A DNA stretch of 64,000 nt from assembly GCA_015709595.1 (NCBI GenBank), contig CP054178.1:2423205-2487204 (forward strand), in the 5' to 3' direction. Position 1 is the stretch's first letter; the number at the start of each line of letters is the position of its first letter. Source of the stretch: Phycisphaeraceae bacterium (GTDB taxonomy: Bacteria; Planctomycetota; Phycisphaerae; Phycisphaerales; SM1A02). The position numbers and the translations under genes were made by a program. A model generated the notes under the pieces. The model worked only from the letters and a program-made list of their open reading frames with translations. It had not been told where the DNA came from and did not search any database. This document shows positions 54,816 to 62,903 of this stretch, one piece after another.

Positions 54816-54821
54816 GGCTCA

Positions 54822-55385
54822 ATGACCGCACCCTTCACCTCGCGCATCACCCACGAAGGCCCCGTGTTTCGGGTCGAGCGGCGGGAGTACGCGCCGCCCG
54901 GCGGCCGCGCGTTCGTGCGCGACATCGTCCGTCACCCCGGCGCGGTGACGATCCTGCCGGTGCTTGATGACGGCGGCATCGTCTTCGTGCGCAACTACCG
55001 CGTGGCCGTGGATGCGCCGCTGCTTGAACTGCCTGCCGGGAAACTGGAGCGTGGCGAAGACCCGAAGGAGGCCGCGGGGCGCGAACTGGAGGAGGAGACC
55101 GGCTATCGCGCCGCCGCGATCGTTCCGCTCGGCCAGTTCTTCACCACGCCGGGTTTCTCGGATGAGCGCATGCACGCCTTTCTCGCCACCGGTCTGACGC
55201 ACGTGGGTCAGCGGTTGGAGCCGGGCGAGGAGATCACGGTCGAAACCGTGCCCTCGGTGGAGGTGTGGCCCATGATCCGCGACGGAGCGATCCGTGACGG
55301 CAAGACGATCGCTGCGCTGGCCCTGTGGTTTGGTTTCGCCGCGACGCCGTCCTGCGCGGCATCCCACGTCGGAACAGCGCGATGA
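54822..55385 (+). CDS. NUDIX hydrolase, ADP-ribose pyrophosphatase-like
   Basis: 187 aa. The Nudix box GKLERGEDPKEAAGRELEEE followed by TGY is complete. The N-terminal strands (GPVFRVERREYAPPGGR, VTILPVLDDGGIVFVRNYR) and the ELPAGKLE context resemble NudF-type ADP-ribose pyrophosphatases. The stop overlaps the M50 protease start (ATGA). Confidence 0.9.
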   Translation: MTAPFTSRITHEGPVFRVERREYAPPGGRAFVRDIVRHPGAVTILPVLDDGGIVFVRNYRVAVDAPLLELPAGKLERGEDPKEAAGRELEEETGYRAAAIVPLGQFFTTPGFSDERMHAFLATGLTHVGQRLEPGEEITVETVPSVEVWPMIRDGAIRDGKTIAALALWFGFAATPSCAASHVGTAR

Positions 55386-56455
55386 GCTGGTACGAGCGCG
55401 ACTACAACCGGGAGGGCGGCTCGCCCGGCGGACGACCCGGGGGCGACTGGTCGGGCATGCGCCCCTCGTTCGATAATCCGGCCTCGTGGTCGTTGCCGCT
55501 TGCTCGCGTGTGGGGCATTTCGGTCCGCGTTCACATCATTCTGGTGCTGTTCATCGCCTTTCAACTGCTCGAATCGGTGGGCAGCCCGACACGGGGCGTC
55601 TCACTCTCACTCGACCTGTTCTTCACCAGCGTGTGGGTGGGAGGGCTGTTTTTCATCGTGCTTCTGCATGAGTTCGGCCACTGCATCGCCTGCCGAAGGG
55701 TGCGGGGCGAGGCGGATGAGATCCTCATGTGGCCCCTGGGCGGCCTGGCGTTCTGCCACCCGCCCGGTCACTGGAAGGCGCACCTGTGGACGGTGCTGGG
55801 CGGACCGCTGGTGAACGTGATGCTGATTCCCGTGCTGGGCGTCCCGCTCGGGATCATCTCCGGCGCGTGGTGGGGAGCGGCGATCCCACTCCCATTTGGA
55901 CAGGCGCCGGCGGCGCTGAGCGAAGTGAGCGACATCGTCTTCGCGCTTTACATCCTCGCCCGCGTCAACATGATGCTGCTGCTGTTCAACCTGCTGCCGA
56001 TGTTTCCGTTGGATGGCGGGCGAATCGTGCAGGCGTTGCTCTGGCCGCGGCTGGGGTACGGGCGGTCGATGCTCTACTCGGTGCGCGTGGGCTACTTCGG
56101 GGCGATCGCACTGGGGTTGTACGGGGCTGCGACGTCCCAGTGGGTGCTGGTCGGGCTGGCTTTCTTCGGGGGCTTCACCTGTTATCAGACATATCGCCAG
56201 CTCCAGTACACCGATGCCCTGCTGGGGCCCGGTTACGGGGGTGGATACGGGGCCGAGCCGGAGGTCCGGCGGGGACCAAGCAAGCGTCAACTTCGCAAGG
56301 CCCAGCGCGAGCGCCAGCAGCAGGAGCACGACGCCCGGGAACTCGACCGACTCCTGGACAAGATCCGCGAAAAAGGCATGGCGTCGCTCAGTTCGTCCGA
56401 ACAGAAGTGGCTCCGTCGTCATACGGAGAAGCAGCGCCGCGACGGGGGGACTTGA
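55382..56455 (+). CDS. M50 site-2-type intramembrane metalloprotease
   Basis: About 357 aa integral membrane protein. Zinc motif HEFGH lies at residues 96-100 and the third ligand in LPMFPLDGGRIVQALL near 210, typical of the M50 family. Six or so membrane helices surround them. The N-terminus is Gly/Pro-rich, and the C-terminal ~75 residues are charged and helical (ELDRLLDKIREKGMASLSSS, then EQKWLRRHTEKQRR). It cleaves membrane proteins inside the bilayer; the substrate is unknown. It overlaps the NUDIX gene by 4 nt and precedes the rhomboid by 18 nt. Confidence 0.92.
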   Translation: MSWYERDYNREGGSPGGRPGGDWSGMRPSFDNPASWSLPLARVWGISVRVHIILVLFIAFQLLESVGSPTRGVSLSLDLFFTSVWVGGLFFIVLLHEFGHCIACRRVRGEADEILMWPLGGLAFCHPPGHWKAHLWTVLGGPLVNVMLIPVLGVPLGIISGAWWGAAIPLPFGQAPAALSEVSDIVFALYILARVNMMLLLFNLLPMFPLDGGRIVQALLWPRLGYGRSMLYSVRVGYFGAIALGLYGAATSQWVLVGLAFFGGFTCYQTYRQLQYTDALLGPGYGGGYGAEPEVRRGPSKRQLRKAQRERQQQEHDARELDRLLDKIREKGMASLSSSEQKWLRRHTEKQRRDGGT

Positions 56456-56473
56456 CGGCAGGAGCCGCTCTTC

Positions 56474-57559
56474 ATGCGTGACAGGCGACAGCCGGACCAG
56501 TTCAGTGCGGTTCCACGTCTGGGTGGGGCCAATGCACCCCCGATGGGCTTTCGCGCCCTGAGCATGGTGTCCGCCACCACGTGGCTCATCGTGATCTGCG
56601 CGGCGGTGTTCTTCGTGGATCGCGCGCTGCCGGCGGAGTGGGTGATGGTGGGCGGGCCGTACATCGCGCGCGGAGCGCCGATCAGCGACGTGCGCGACCT
56701 CGACTTCGACATGGAGGGCGTGAAGCCCCCCCCCAACCTGCACATCATCCCCGTGCCGGTGGTGGATCGGCGCACCGGCATGGAGGTCGGCTACGCCATG
56801 GTCACCCGCATGCACTGGCTGACGCGGGTCATGCACTTCTCCACCACCAGCGGCTTCCTCGGCATCGAGTACTGGCGCTTCATCGGCTTCCAGTTTCTGC
56901 ACTTCGACTTCATGCACCTGGCTCTCAACATGCTGGGGCTGTTCATCTTCGGACCGATCGTGGAGGAATACCTGGGCCGCAAGCGCTACGTGGCGTTCTA
57001 CCTGCTGGCGGGCATCTTCGGCGCGCTGATGTACCTGACGCTCAATCTGCTGGGGAACCTCGCACTGATGGCGGGCGTGGAATCGTGGCTGCCGGGGCTG
57101 CTTTTCCACGATCCCAAGACGCCGCTGGTCGGGGCGTCGGCGGGGGTGTTCGGCGTGATGATGGCCGGCGCGTTCATCGCGCCGCGAGACATCATCTACT
57201 ACTTCTTCCTGCCCATCCGGCTCGACCTGTTCGCCTACACGCTCACGGCGCTGGCGGCGGTGAAGGTGATCTTCGGCGGGTACAACGCCGGCGGCGAGGC
57301 GGGGCACCTGGGCGGGGCCATCGCCGGGTTCTACTTCATCCGTCGTCCCCATCATCTGCACGGGTTCTTCGACATTCTGGGTCGCGTCGACCCCACCTCG
57401 CATCACTATCGGAAGGGAGATGGAGACGCACGCCGCCAGCGCCGCAGCCACGAACAGGAAGTGCGGCGCGTCCTCGCCAAGATCCGTCACGTCGGGATCG
57501 AGGGGCTGACGCCGGAGGAGCGCGCCGTGCTGGAGGAGGACGCCAGGCGCAGGGGATGA
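56474..57559 (+). CDS. Rhomboid-family intramembrane serine protease
   Basis: 361 aa. The catalytic Ser222 is in VGASAGVFGVMMAG and His278 in GGEAGHLGGAIAGF. HFDFMHLALNMLGLFIFG carries the conserved His/Asn of the active-site region. About seven membrane helices are seen, with a ~60-residue insert after helix 1 that includes a cysteine-free loop. The C-terminal tail (VRRVLAKIRHVGIEGLTPEE, then RAVLEEDARRR) resembles the tail of the adjacent M50 protease. Soluble-domain or partner binding through this tail is inferred. Confidence 0.93.
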   Translation: MRDRRQPDQFSAVPRLGGANAPPMGFRALSMVSATTWLIVICAAVFFVDRALPAEWVMVGGPYIARGAPISDVRDLDFDMEGVKPPPNLHIIPVPVVDRRTGMEVGYAMVTRMHWLTRVMHFSTTSGFLGIEYWRFIGFQFLHFDFMHLALNMLGLFIFGPIVEEYLGRKRYVAFYLLAGIFGALMYLTLNLLGNLALMAGVESWLPGLLFHDPKTPLVGASAGVFGVMMAGAFIAPRDIIYYFFLPIRLDLFAYTLTALAAVKVIFGGYNAGGEAGHLGGAIAGFYFIRRPHHLHGFFDILGRVDPTSHHYRKGDGDARRQRRSHEQEVRRVLAKIRHVGIEGLTPEERAVLEEDARRRG

Positions 57560-57644: not shown

Positions 57645-58823
57645 ATGTCCGGCCCCTTGTCATTCGAGATTCTGCACCGATGCCCCCTGTCGCGCGCCCG
57701 CATGGGGCGGGTGACGACGCCGCACGGGTCGTTTGACACGCCGGCCTTCATGCCCGTGGGCACACGGGCGTCGGTAAAGGGGCTGACGCCCGAACAGGTG
57801 CGGGGCACGGGCAGCCAGATCATCCTGAACAACGCCTACCACCTCATGCTGCGCCCGGGGCCGGAACTGATCCGACGTCGCGGGGGGTGCCACCGGTTTA
57901 TGCGGTGGGACGGGCCGATCCTGACCGACTCGGGGGGGTATCAGGCCTTTTCAATGTCGGATATCAGCCGGATCACGGAGGATGGCGTCACGTTCCGGTC
58001 GGTGGTCGATGGTTCGCCGGTTCACCTCAGTCCCGAGCGGTCCATGGAGGTGCAGAACGACCTCGGGGCGGACATCATCATGGCGTTCGACGATTGCCCG
58101 CCCGCGGCGGAAGGAGGCGCGACTGCGGAGGATCGCGCCCGTGTTCAGGCGGCCTGTGAGCGCACCATCCGGTGGCTGGAGCGATGCGTCAGAACCCATC
58201 AACGCCCGGATGAACAGGCCCTGTTCGGCATTGTCCAGGGGGGCGTCCATCCGGATCTGCGCCAACGGTCGGCGAGTCAGGTGTGCGGGATCGACCTGCC
58301 CGGCTACGCCGTCGGTGGAGTGGCGGTGGGGGAGGGAACGGCGGCGATCGCCCGGGTCGTCGAGTTCACCGCCCCCTTTCTGCCGCAGAACAAGCCCCGA
58401 TACCTGATGGGGGTGGGGTATGAGCGGGATCTTGTCATGGCGGTTCGGGCGGGAGTGGACATGTTCGACTGCGTCCTTCCGACGAGGAACGGGCGCAATG
58501 GCACCGCGTTCACGCGGGCGGGCCGCATCAACCTGCGGAACGCCCGGTTTTCAGAGGACGATGGGCCAGTGGACCCCGCTTGCGATTGTTCGACCTGTTC
58601 CGGGGGGTTCAGCCGCGCCTACCTGCGGCATCTGTTCACCGTCGGGGAGATGCTGGGGCCGATTCTGCTGAGCGTGCATAACATCCGCCACTTCCAACGG
58701 CTGATGCTGGACGTTCGGCGGGCTGTCCGGGAGAATGGCTGGTCTTCCCTGGAGCGGGACTGGCCGGTGCTGTCGGACCCGGTCGCCGGGTCGGCGGAGG
58801 CCGGTCCAGCCCGTTCGCGTTGA
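57645..58823 (+). CDS. tgt: Queuine tRNA-ribosyltransferase
   Basis: 392 aa. It exchanges guanine 34 of NAC-anticodon tRNAs for preQ1 in bacteria. A catalytic Asp is in PILTDSGGYQAFSMS, the second in MFDCVLPTRNGRNGTAFT. The zinc site is CDCSTCSGGFSRAYLRHLF with a downstream His. ATG 57645 gives the family N-terminus (FEILHRCPLSRARMG). It heads a tgt-yajC-secDF unit, the same order as in many bacteria. Confidence 0.96.
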   Translation: MSGPLSFEILHRCPLSRARMGRVTTPHGSFDTPAFMPVGTRASVKGLTPEQVRGTGSQIILNNAYHLMLRPGPELIRRRGGCHRFMRWDGPILTDSGGYQAFSMSDISRITEDGVTFRSVVDGSPVHLSPERSMEVQNDLGADIIMAFDDCPPAAEGGATAEDRARVQAACERTIRWLERCVRTHQRPDEQALFGIVQGGVHPDLRQRSASQVCGIDLPGYAVGGVAVGEGTAAIARVVEFTAPFLPQNKPRYLMGVGYERDLVMAVRAGVDMFDCVLPTRNGRNGTAFTRAGRINLRNARFSEDDGPVDPACDCSTCSGGFSRAYLRHLFTVGEMLGPILLSVHNIRHFQRLMLDVRRAVRENGWSSLERDWPVLSDPVAGSAEAGPARSR

Positions 58824-58832
58824 GTCACACCC

Positions 58833-59294
58833 ATGTGGAACCTTGATTCGATTCCTTCGCTCACGCTGACCCTGTCGCAGGGCGAAGGCGCACCTCCGCC
58901 CCCGAACCTGGGCGGCGGTGGCGGAAACGCGACCACCGGCGCGAATGGCGGGACCGGGGGCGCCGCGCCGCCGCGCCCCAATGATCCGTTCTCCAGTTTG
59001 TTGCCCATCTTCATGGTGCTCATTCTCATCTTCATCTTCTGGTCGTTCTCGAGTCAGAAGAAGGAGAAGAAGAAGCGGGAGGCCCTGCTCTCGAGCATCA
59101 AGAAGCACGACCAGGTGCAGACGATCGGCGGCATCATCGGCTCGGTGGTGGAAGTGAAGTCGAACACCGTGGTGCTGAAGGTGGATGAGTCGTCCAACAC
59201 GCGCATGACCTTCGCCAAGTCAGCCATTCAGCAGGTGCTGCGGGATTCTCCGGACAAGGCCCCGGAGCCCGCCGACGCGGGAGCGAAGAAGTAA
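58833..59294 (+). CDS. yajC: Sec translocase accessory subunit YajC
   Basis: 153 aa. One membrane helix (LLPIFMVLILIFIFWSF, ~52-68) is followed by the cytoplasmic domain QKKEKKKREALLSSIKKHDQ, then VQTIGGIIGSVVEVKSN, typical of YajC. The N-terminal ~50 residues are unusual for the family (about 110 aa elsewhere). They are Gly/Pro-rich and begin PSLTLTLSQGEGAPPPP, which resembles the translation of a genomic repeat. It lies 9 nt after tgt. Confidence 0.93.
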   Translation: MWNLDSIPSLTLTLSQGEGAPPPPNLGGGGGNATTGANGGTGGAAPPRPNDPFSSLLPIFMVLILIFIFWSFSSQKKEKKKREALLSSIKKHDQVQTIGGIIGSVVEVKSNTVVLKVDESSNTRMTFAKSAIQQVLRDSPDKAPEPADAGAKK

Positions 59295-59375
59295 CAGGCC
59301 GCATGGCTGGCGGCGCGAACGAGCGGCCGGACGTTGCGGCCATCGACGTTCGCATGACCTGAGGGTGGATGCACG

Positions 59376-62300
59376 ATGCACAACTTGCAATGGAGAATCC
59401 TCATCATCCTGGTGGTGCTGGCCATCTGCGCCTGGCAGCTGGTCAGCAACGGGATCCGGTGGGGTCGTGACCTCGCCGGCGGCCTGAGCGTCATCTATCA
59501 GGTGAAGCTGGAGGACACCGATGACCCCGAGCAGGTGATGCCGCAGGTCGTCGACGTGCTCAAGAACCGTCTCAATCCCACCGGGGCCATTGACCTGAGC
59601 GTGACGCGCCAGGGGACCGACCGGATCGAGATTTCCATCCCGCTGCCGGATGAGCGGGTCAAGGCGGCGCAGCAGGCCTATCGGGACGCCATCGATTCCG
59701 TTCTGCGCAGCGCCCGCATCGACCCCAACGAACTGGAGTCGCGCCTTCAGGCGGGCGAGGCCGTCAAGGTTTTCGGCGGGCCGGAGGGCACCACGCACTG
59801 GGCGCGGATGGACTCGCTGCAGAAGGCCTACGACCGGCAGCGCGCCGCTCGCGCCGCGTACGAAGCCGCCCGCGGCGCCGACCCGCGGGACGAAGCCGCG
59901 CTGGCTCGCGCCGAGGCGGAGCTGGCCGAGGCGGAGGTGGTCTACGACGCGCTGCTGACCGAAGCGCTGCGGTACAGTCTGCGCGAGCCGGACCTGCTCC
60001 GCCTGGTGCAGCTCTCCAACGAGCCGCGCGATCGCAAGGATCCCGAGACGGGTCGCGTGCTGCTCGATGAGAACAAGCAGCGCATCAAGGACAAGAGTCT
60101 CCGCCAGCTCGAGCTGGAGTCGCTGCAGGAGCGATTCCCGCACCTGAAGAATGAACTGGCGGCGGTGGTTGAGAAGTACGACACCTACGCCGGACTGCGC
60201 CGCGGCTTCGACGACATCGAGGACCTCAAGCGCATGGTGCGCGGCGCGGGCGTGCTGGAGTTCCGCATCGCCGCCACCGCGGGGCAGAACGAAGGGTTCA
60301 ACGTCGACCAGATGCGCGAGGCGCTGGCGGAGCACGGACCGACCTTCCGCGCCTCGGACATCGTCCGCTGGATGGCGATCAACGACGTCAAGCAGTGGTA
60401 CAAGACCGATGAGCAGCTGGCGGCGCTGACGCGCGACCCGGTGGGATATTTCGCGGGGCGCGGCCTGATCGCCGCGGAATACCGAGGCCGCATCTATCTG
60501 CTGATCTACGATGCGCCGGGCAAGAAACTGGTGCATGATCAGGCGGGAGCCCCGTGGTCGCTGCAGGCGGCCTTCCCCACCCAGGATTCGCTGGGGCGGC
60601 CGGCCGTCGGGTTCCGTCTCGACAGCGCGGGCGGCATTCAGATGGGCCAGTTGACCGGCTCCAACGTCAACCGGCCCATGGCGATCGTGCTGGATGACGA
60701 GGTCTTCTCCGCGCCCAACATCAACTCGCGCATCGGCGGCAACGGCATCATCGAGGGCAACTTCTCCGCCGCCGAGATCAACTACCTGATCCGCGTGCTG
60801 GCGTCGGGATCGCTGCAGGCGCGTCTGCTGCCCGACCCCATCGCGCAGAACGTGCTGGGACCGTCGATCGGGCGCGACAACCTGGAGCGCGGACTGTGGG
60901 CGTGCCTGTGGTCGATTCTGGCGACCTGCGCGTTCATGATGGTCTACTACTTCTTCGCCGGGGCCATCGCCAATTTCGCTCTGCTGTGCAACGCACTCAT
61001 CATCTTCGGCGTGATGGCGATGCAGCAGGCGTCGTTCACGCTGCCGGGCATCGCTGGCGTGGTGCTCACCATCGGCATGGCGGTGGACGCCAACGTGCTC
61101 ATCTACGAGCGCATGCGCGAGGAGATCTTCGCGGGCGAGAAGGATCTGCGCTCCATCGTCAAGCTCGGATACTCCAAGGCGCTGAGCACGATCATCGACG
61201 GCAACCTGACGAACCTGATCGTCGCCTTCGCGCTCTATCAGACGGCGAGCACCGAGATCAAGGGCTTCGCGCTGACGCTGGGCATCGGCATCGCCTCCAC
61301 GCTGTTCACCGCCCTGTTCGTCACGCGGACGATCTACATCATCTACGCCGACAAGCTCCGCATCAACAAACTGGAGATGCTGCCCACCGCCGTGCCGGCC
61401 ATTCACCGGGCGCTGGAGCCGAACATCAACTGGGTCGGGCTGCGGCGCATCTTCATCCCGATGAGCTTCGTACTGGTGGTCGCCAGCGTCGTGATGGTGG
61501 GCTACCGAGGCCAGGAAATCTACGACACCGAGTTCCGCGGCGGCATCTCGGCCACCATGCAGACCAGGCCGTCCGATCCCGGCGATCCGCAGTCGCCGCG
61601 CATTCTGCTCGACCGTCGGGAAGTGCAGGAGCGCGTGCAGGCCATCGCCGATGGTCCGCGCGCCCAGGAGGAGCCGATCCTGCAGGCCTTCCGGCGGGCG
61701 GTGGTGCTCACCGCCGGCGCGGGTCAGCAGGGCGCCCGTTCCGACAGCTTCCAGATCAAGATCGCGGTGGACGCCGAAAACGTGACGGACACGCAGAAGA
61801 TCGTGGACGCCATCGTGAGCGCGTTCGCCGCGGAGCTGGGCCAGACCTCGTCGCACGACTTCCGCGGCGCGGCTGAACCCACGCCGCCCGTGGGCGCGAC
61901 GTATCCCATCAGCGGGGCGCGGTACCTGTCGCAGGTCATCGAGCGCCCCGGCTTCGACCGCTCCGTGGCGGCCTACGACGGGGGCGTGGCGATCGTCATC
62001 GACGAGATCAATCCGCCCGCCGCCCTTTCAGACGTGCGCGATCGCATCGCCCGCATGAGGCAGCAGCGCGACTTCAGCGACACGGTGGGGCGTGATTTCG
62101 ACGTGATCGGGCTCACCCCCGCGCCGTCGGGCGATGGCTACACCTCGCTCTGCGTGCTGGTCGCCGATCCGGCGCTCAGGTTCGCCGATTCGGCGGAACG
62201 CTGGGAGAGCTTCCTGGCGACGCGCGAATGGCAACTGGTCGGCGCCGCGCTGGCCAGGCCGGCCTCGCTGGAGCAGGTCAGCTCCTTCTCCGGTTCGGTG

Positions 62301-62903
62301 GCCGACACCCTCTTCGCCAACGCCGTCACCGCCGTGGCGCTGAGTCTCATGGGCATCCTCGTCTACATCTGGATCCGCTTCGGCTCGCTTCGCTACAGCG
62401 TCGCGGCGGTGGTGGCTCTGGTGCATGATGCCGCCATTGCGCTGGGCGCGCTGGCATTGACGCACTACATCTCCGGATCGTCCATCGCCAATCTTCTGCT
62501 CATCGAGGACTTCCACATCAACCTCGGCGTGGTGGCCGGACTCCTCACGATCATCGGGTACTCGCTCAACGACACCATCGTCATCCTCGACCGCATCCGC
62601 GAGAACCGCGGCAAGCGCCCGCTCGCCTCCGCCGAAGTGGTGAACGCCTCGATCAACCAGACCATCAGCCGCACCGTGCTCACGGGCGGCACCACGCTGA
62701 TCGCGGCGATGATTCTCTTCGCCGAGGGCGGCACCGGAATCCGCGACTTCACCTTCGTGCTGATCGTCGGCCTGATCGTGGGCACCTACAGCTCGGTCGC
62801 CATCGCGGCACCGATCGTCTACAAGGCGTCCAATGGCGGTCAGGGAGAGCCGCAGGAGGAGCCGACCACGACCGGGGCCGGAGCACTGGCCCGAACCACG
62901 TGA
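59376..62903 (+). CDS. secDF: SecD-SecF fusion protein
   Basis: 1175 aa. SecD (~1-660) and SecF (~690-1175) are fused, giving about twelve membrane helices that use the proton gradient to drive late steps of Sec export. The SecD half has the DLAGGLSVIYQV and IAGVVLTIGMAVDANVLIYERM blocks. The SecF half has TEFRGGISATMQ near its start, then VADTLFANAVTAVALSLMGI, GYSLNDTIVILDRIRENRG and ISRTVLTGGTTLIAAM. Both periplasmic regions carry insertions, notably a charged helical one near residues 125-285 (AYDRQRAARAAYEAARGAD). Fusion is known in other planctomycetes and Gram-positives. Confidence 0.95.
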   Translation: MHNLQWRILIILVVLAICAWQLVSNGIRWGRDLAGGLSVIYQVKLEDTDDPEQVMPQVVDVLKNRLNPTGAIDLSVTRQGTDRIEISIPLPDERVKAAQQAYRDAIDSVLRSARIDPNELESRLQAGEAVKVFGGPEGTTHWARMDSLQKAYDRQRAARAAYEAARGADPRDEAALARAEAELAEAEVVYDALLTEALRYSLREPDLLRLVQLSNEPRDRKDPETGRVLLDENKQRIKDKSLRQLELESLQERFPHLKNELAAVVEKYDTYAGLRRGFDDIEDLKRMVRGAGVLEFRIAATAGQNEGFNVDQMREALAEHGPTFRASDIVRWMAINDVKQWYKTDEQLAALTRDPVGYFAGRGLIAAEYRGRIYLLIYDAPGKKLVHDQAGAPWSLQAAFPTQDSLGRPAVGFRLDSAGGIQMGQLTGSNVNRPMAIVLDDEVFSAPNINSRIGGNGIIEGNFSAAEINYLIRVLASGSLQARLLPDPIAQNVLGPSIGRDNLERGLWACLWSILATCAFMMVYYFFAGAIANFALLCNALIIFGVMAMQQASFTLPGIAGVVLTIGMAVDANVLIYERMREEIFAGEKDLRSIVKLGYSKALSTIIDGNLTNLIVAFALYQTASTEIKGFALTLGIGIASTLFTALFVTRTIYIIYADKLRINKLEMLPTAVPAIHRALEPNINWVGLRRIFIPMSFVLVVASVVMVGYRGQEIYDTEFRGGISATMQTRPSDPGDPQSPRILLDRREVQERVQAIADGPRAQEEPILQAFRRAVVLTAGAGQQGARSDSFQIKIAVDAENVTDTQKIVDAIVSAFAAELGQTSSHDFRGAAEPTPPVGATYPISGARYLSQVIERPGFDRSVAAYDGGVAIVIDEINPPAALSDVRDRIARMRQQRDFSDTVGRDFDVIGLTPAPSGDGYTSLCVLVADPALRFADSAERWESFLATREWQLVGAALARPASLEQVSSFSGSVADTLFANAVTAVALSLMGILVYIWIRFGSLRYSVAAVVALVHDAAIALGALALTHYISGSSIANLLLIEDFHINLGVVAGLLTIIGYSLNDTIVILDRIRENRGKRPLASAEVVNASINQTISRTVLTGGTTLIAAMILFAEGGTGIRDFTFVLIVGLIVGTYSSVAIAAPIVYKASNGGQGEPQEEPTTTGAGALARTT

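Follow-up and report, generated by a model that had tools for sequence, protein, structure and literature searches.

Two unrelated intramembrane proteases, an M50 (site-2-protease-like) enzyme and a rhomboid, are encoded in tandem in a Phycisphaeraceae bacterium and end in the same C-terminal module, DUF6576 (Pfam PF20216). In other Planctomycetota the tail is carried by one, the other or both enzymes, and in two pairs of congeneric genomes homologous sequence encloses an M50 core in one genome and a rhomboid core in the other, which suggests from sequence comparison that the tail, rather than the chemistry of the enzyme, sets the place of the gene in the cell. We found no prior description of DUF6576 on M50 proteins or of the core exchange in the open-licence literature; full-text searches there returned no paper naming DUF6576 or PF20216 and none combining a domain of unknown function, rhomboid and Planctomycetota, and searches for rhomboid with site-2 protease, M50, operon or gene fusion gave nothing relevant by title.

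The gene pair and its shared tail

In the window (the whole stretch of 64,000 nucleotides that was analyzed), the M50 gene (55382..56455, + strand, 357 aa) is followed after 18 bases by the rhomboid gene (56474..57559, + strand, 361 aa). Profile, motifs and fold all assign the first product to the Peptidase M50 / site-2 protease family: it scores 49.5 bits against Peptidase_M50 (PF02163), above the cut-off, its sequence and alignment place an HExxH active site (HEFGH, 55667..55681, +) and an LDG second metal motif (LDGGR, 56009..56023, +), and its predicted core matches the site-2 protease S2P 3b4r (E 9.6e-11) and SpoIVFB 8vjm (E 3.1e-6) in a fold comparison. The core fold and both motifs are thus common to SpoIVFB, the M. 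jannaschii S2P and the window M50. SpoIVFB, however, has a C-terminal CBS domain where the window M50 bears the DUF6576 hairpin. The second product is a rhomboid (PF01694, 90.5 bits, above the cut-off) whose Ser/His dyad, Ser222 in a GAS motif (codon 57137..57139, +) and His278 (codon 57305..57307, +), is invariant in a 32-sequence alignment; it is neither a Rhombosortase nor a GlpG equivalog by NCBIfam (TIGR03902, 36.7 vs a cut-off of 84; TIGR04239, 31.1 vs 250).

The common tail claimed by the original prediction was confirmed by several comparisons. A Pfam search placed DUF6576 at residues 312-349 of the M50 protein (56315..56428, +; 35.9 bits, E 8.1e-9) and at residues 321-357 of the rhomboid (57434..57544, +; 27.4 bits, E 3.8e-6), both above the curated cut-off of 27.3 bits, the latter barely so. 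The two window proteins align at their tails by BLASTP (E 7e-6), and a profile-profile comparison of the full-length family alignments matched the same stretch with a probability of 98.7% (E 1.5e-16), where the prediction would have fallen had the similarity not been significant. Larger tail sets, 86 from M50s and 167 from rhomboids, matched at 99.6% (E 8e-25; no column shuffle out of 100 scored as high), a figure that is partly circular since one shared tail model gathered both sets; the Pfam, BLASTP and full-length results are less so. The genome, a single contig of 3.84 Mb, contains two DUF6576 copies, those of the window pair, and no third.

AlphaFold2 models, built from 9 and 32 sequences, confidently give both tails the same shape, a long helix, a turn at an invariant Gly, conserved as Gly-x-x-Ser-Leu, and a second helix toward the C-terminus (M50 residues 301-331 and 338-355, pLDDT about 85-93 over the tail; rhomboid residues 316-340 and 347-360, about 84-97). 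The basic helix that had been described after the shared motif is therefore present, as the second helix of the DUF6576 module and not as a separate element. From the known topology of the rhomboid and M50 families, the tail presumably lies on the cytosolic side. Being short, charged, at the extreme C-terminus and independent of the enzyme, it could be a signal for turnover or assembly, a degron-like handle, read by an AAA protease, that governs the level of whichever protease carries it; its length and internal conservation exceed those of known short degrons, and we regard this explanation as very unlikely. Among solved structures the best match to the tail was one helix of SmpB (E 0.37), which we take as chance. 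SHOCT (PF09851) was considered as a parent of the tail, being likewise short and C-terminal, with a turn at Gly and a (T/S)-x-x-E opening of the second helix, and was rejected because the profile similarity is not significant (score 11.0, probability 1%, matched by 6 of 100 shuffles).

Directly upstream of the pair lies a Nudix hydrolase gene (54819..55385, +; NCBIfam NudE-like, 80.7 bits, under the equivalog cut-off) that serves as a syntenic marker of the locus. Downstream are tgt, yajC and secDF (57645..62903, +), the last encoding a fused SecDF of 1175 aa. YajC and SecDF are found at 27 of 31 loci in the window's taxonomic order vs 0 of 69 elsewhere in the class, so the linkage, limited to this order, was dropped as a clue to function.

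Carriers of DUF6576

DUF6576 is very common. In the window's class, 185 of 198 genomes have it (at least one copy in 152 of the 155 good ones), as do 184 of 199 genomes sampled from the planctomycete phylum, 61/61 Bacteroidota genomes and 50/59 Verrucomicrobiota genomes. To identify the bearers, we collected 160 planctomycete stretches around DUF6576 matches, drawn mostly from the stronger matches, 100 from the window's class and 60 from other classes of the phylum. All 189 tails at these loci are on M50s (79) or rhomboids (110) and none on another protein; these architectures, like the trees below, rest on whole frames read stop to stop, with starts guessed unless an N-terminal box marks them. 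A cross-phylum pattern scan of named genomes returned at least 119 stretches, and the tail was seen in 79 of the 80 listed. Among the matches listed, 77 of 88 tails are on rhomboids, 10 on M50s and one on a reading frame truncated where its stretch ends; again among these, all 10 tailed M50s are in records titled Planctomycetota or subgroups of it, and tailed rhomboids also occur in Bacteroidota, Verrucomicrobiota, Gemmatimonadota, Elusimicrobia, Chlorobiales and Ignavibacteria. Sixty-five loci from other phyla gave 63 tails on rhomboids and two on proteins of 81 residues, a length that rests on the chosen start. As far as sampled, DUF6576 is thus mainly a rhomboid tail, with M50 carriers only in Planctomycetota.

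Both tailed proteases are present in 21 of the 31 loci from the window's order and in 29 of 97 classified class genomes (27 of these with two listed matches), while 58 of the 97 have a single DUF6576 match, on a rhomboid in 35 and on an M50 in 23. In the remaining 10, which have two matches, a single kind was seen, the other copy being of that kind too or lying outside the stretches collected. Where the genes are in tandem, the M50 comes first in 19 loci (families f1, f2 and f5) and the rhomboid in 8 (f3, f4, f18 and f20). These 27 tandems, together with the two-helix hairpin modeled in both tails, would suit a homotypic dimerization hairpin that joins the M50 to the rhomboid or forms homodimers. 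With one protease in each of the 58 single-match genomes, hetero-pairing cannot be general, leaving homodimers, and we judge dimerization unlikely as the role of the tail. Like-kind tandems also occur, two tailed rhomboids at L079 and two tailed M50s at L231.

The catalytic residues of the two enzymes have fared differently. Ser and His are retained in 36/36 tandem rhomboids. Among 36 tandem M50s, 30 are intact, one is cut by the end of its locus and five have lost active-site residues (HExxH or LDG; L065, L068, L085, L265 and L317), so that these five are likely, from their sequences, pseudoproteases beside an intact rhomboid. Lone M50s are intact in 48 of 53 cases; of the 151 lone rhomboids, 21 were rated not intact, a count that we set aside, several being cut by locus ends or misaligned. 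These results bear on a two-step cascade in which the rhomboid would cut a joint substrate first and the M50 second, with the tails aligning them. Adjacency of the genes in the window and the site-1/site-2 logic known for S2P enzymes speak for such an arrangement, which we nevertheless hold to be highly improbable: the single-match genomes carry a tailed M50 or a tailed rhomboid alone, which leads us to reject an obligatory cascade as a general rule, and five tandem M50s lack active-site residues. Separately, the catalytic residues could be located only in part in a divergent group of DUF6576 rhomboids (family f46; L176, L178, L184, L193, L194, L214 and L216), which may be pseudo-rhomboids or misaligned.

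Many tailed proteases also share an N-terminal box, M-x(2,3)-[DEN]-[RK]-x-[YW], typically MGxYDRDY or MSWxDRDY. It was found in 40 of 49 tailed rhomboids and 23 of 57 tailed M50s at class loci, in 14 of 41 rhomboids and 0 of 20 M50s at loci of other classes, and, among the matches listed in named records, in 32 of 77 rhomboids and 0 of 10 M50s, against a background of 0 of 9 untailed proteins and 3 of 5000 random windows. The box, too, looks like a rhomboid feature that was adopted by the M50. In the window, the box scan finds it on the M50 protein (MSWYERDY, 55382..55405, +) and not on the rhomboid.

Alternation of protease cores at the Nudix locus

In 66 of the 160 loci, the gene immediately upstream, in the same orientation, encodes a Nudix protein, and the occupants of the spot beside it vary: 23 are a tailed M50, 23 a tailed rhomboid, 19 are both and one is two rhomboids. 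Mapped on the Nudix protein tree, these four states require at least 15 changes, against a mean of 32 after shuffling; the starred branches force at least five changes for the M50 and at least five for the rhomboid, and states are mixed within families f7 and f10. A complete search of the 17 genomes of family f7 gave 16 with one tail, 8 on an M50 and 8 on a rhomboid, all beside the Nudix gene. Family f10 (26 genomes, 24 with a tail) gave 27 tails, 17 on M50s, 9 on rhomboids and one on a frame interrupted by a contig break. This family also holds a second lineage of tailed M50s (L121, L122 and L131) that does not neighbour the Nudix gene; two of its members, L121 and L122, have an altered HExxH and WFDGG as their second motif.

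Two congeneric pairs, from different genera of one family, allow the junctions to be located. In the first (genomes G038 and G002, one contig each), the single DUF6576 match is on an M50 in G038 (L094) vs a rhomboid in G002 (L134), and blastn aligns blocks of 83.5% and 84.9% identity on either side of a non-homologous core; homology covers the first codons (MSWEHR) and returns a few codons ahead of EVDRILEK. Of the 38 tail codons, 27 are the same, 10 differ silently and one is changed, so the two tails are near-identical despite different cores. The cores have their nearest relatives in their own family, among tailed M50s for L094 (57%) and tailed rhomboids for L134 (64%). In the second pair (G395 and G397; L445 and L446), the blocks are 86.2% and 86.4% identical, the 5' block stopping about 66 bases ahead of the M50 start codon and the 3' block starting within about ten codons upstream of VDAILEK, and the 41 tail codons comprise 30 identical, 9 silently different and 2 changed.

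The 3' junctions of both exchanges thus lie at the tail, and tail and N-terminal box act as repeats in tandem loci that could seed deletions, as would be expected if the tails were left over from rearrangement of tandem genes (partial duplication or gene-end conversion) and had no function in common. We consider such an origin quite unlikely, since invariance in the tail matches that at catalytic positions (of the invariant columns, 7 of 24 in the M50 alignment and 5 of 12 in the rhomboid alignment are tail columns), silent changes predominate in the tail codons of both pairs, and the domain is present in nearly all good genomes of the class and in every Bacteroidota genome sampled. By these comparisons, the tails are homologous, evidently under purifying selection, and retained while the core is a rhomboid, an M50 or a tandem of the two.

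Tail similarity was then compared with the kind of core. Across the 46 Nudix loci with a single tail, tail identity at equal Nudix identity was 0.491 for unlike vs 0.485 for like cores, 0.500 vs 0.501 and 0.529 vs 0.540, like pairs being somewhat closer in the bin of 60-70% Nudix identity (0.585 vs 0.650). At these loci, tail similarity tracks the locus nearly independently of the kind of core. Tails in the 27 tandem loci lean slightly toward their own kind (M50 with M50, 0.471; rhomboid with rhomboid, 0.485; M50 with rhomboid, 0.439 between genomes and 0.454 within). Recent copying of the tail within the window was ruled out, tandem tails averaging 45% identity, barely above the level between genomes, and the two tails of a tandem may therefore bind different things.

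In FastTree phylogenies, the rhomboid cores of f7 and of f10 form one clade each, and M50 cores cluster broadly by family, with those of f7, f8 and f10 each split. Since both kinds of core follow families, an ancestral tandem followed by loss would account for a large part of the distribution, with no need for new swaps time and again. Most simply, the ancestors of these families would have held both cores, as a tandem or as exchangeable alleles, and their descendants would have kept one; exchange between relatives may also have been a source of cores.

Possible role of the tail

Because the tail outlasts catalysis and persists when the kind of enzyme changes, it would seem to have a role of its own in docking or targeting. 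Our best reading is that it is a docking or targeting module and that the proteases are interchangeable effectors; we think it probable that DUF6576 is a cytosolic helix-turn-helix tail through which, in these bacteria, an intramembrane protease is tied to a shared partner or location. The original prediction had offered a common docking partner or a joint substrate. A shared role of the tail is supported by its conservation on both enzymes across the phylum and by its retention through core change and on the five degraded tandem M50s, which would fit a common docking partner; a joint substrate is not required, given the many class genomes with a single match on one protease.

The nearest model for such a role would be the rhomboid YqgP of Bacillus subtilis, an adaptor of FtsH whose function in that capacity, according to PMC7231995, does not depend on proteolysis. 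YqgP likewise combines a rhomboid, a cytosolic extension and a partner, and its function without proteolysis parallels the dead tailed M50s; it differs in acting via an N-terminal cytosolic domain, and the abstract of that paper mentions no M50 counterpart (PMC7231995).

The tail would have arisen as a rhomboid module, as rhomboid carriers in several phyla suggest, and in Planctomycetota an M50 core would have been grafted into the shell of a rhomboid gene, that is, the N-terminal box and the tail. Either core could then have done the same job, so that lineages with both would later have lost one or the other. Least certain is the proposal of a shared partner in membrane quality control to which the tail would dock the enzyme; this partner, an AAA protease (FtsH, for example) or the Sec machinery, would supply substrates or take over fragments. 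To our knowledge, the roles of most bacterial rhomboids are not known. A tail held in common with an unrelated protease that replaces a rhomboid at its locus would mean that delivery and partner matter, not cleavage chemistry, and would offer a handle for fishing out the partner.

More tentatively, with a little less than even confidence, proteolysis here may work by plug and socket: tail and N-terminal box would fix the job and the partner, the serine or metallo core would be a swappable cartridge, exchanged in place at least twice within genera of one family, and the small proteins of Bacteroidota would be protease-free regulators or decoys for the same socket.

These two proteins (L455:1501-1752 and L456:1501-1824, both − strand) have about 81 residues and consist of one membrane span and DUF6576, without a protease; DUF6576 is therefore not strictly a protease mark. 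The L455 gene lies between a dksA-like gene and what we take, from its sequence, to be lspA (signal peptidase II).
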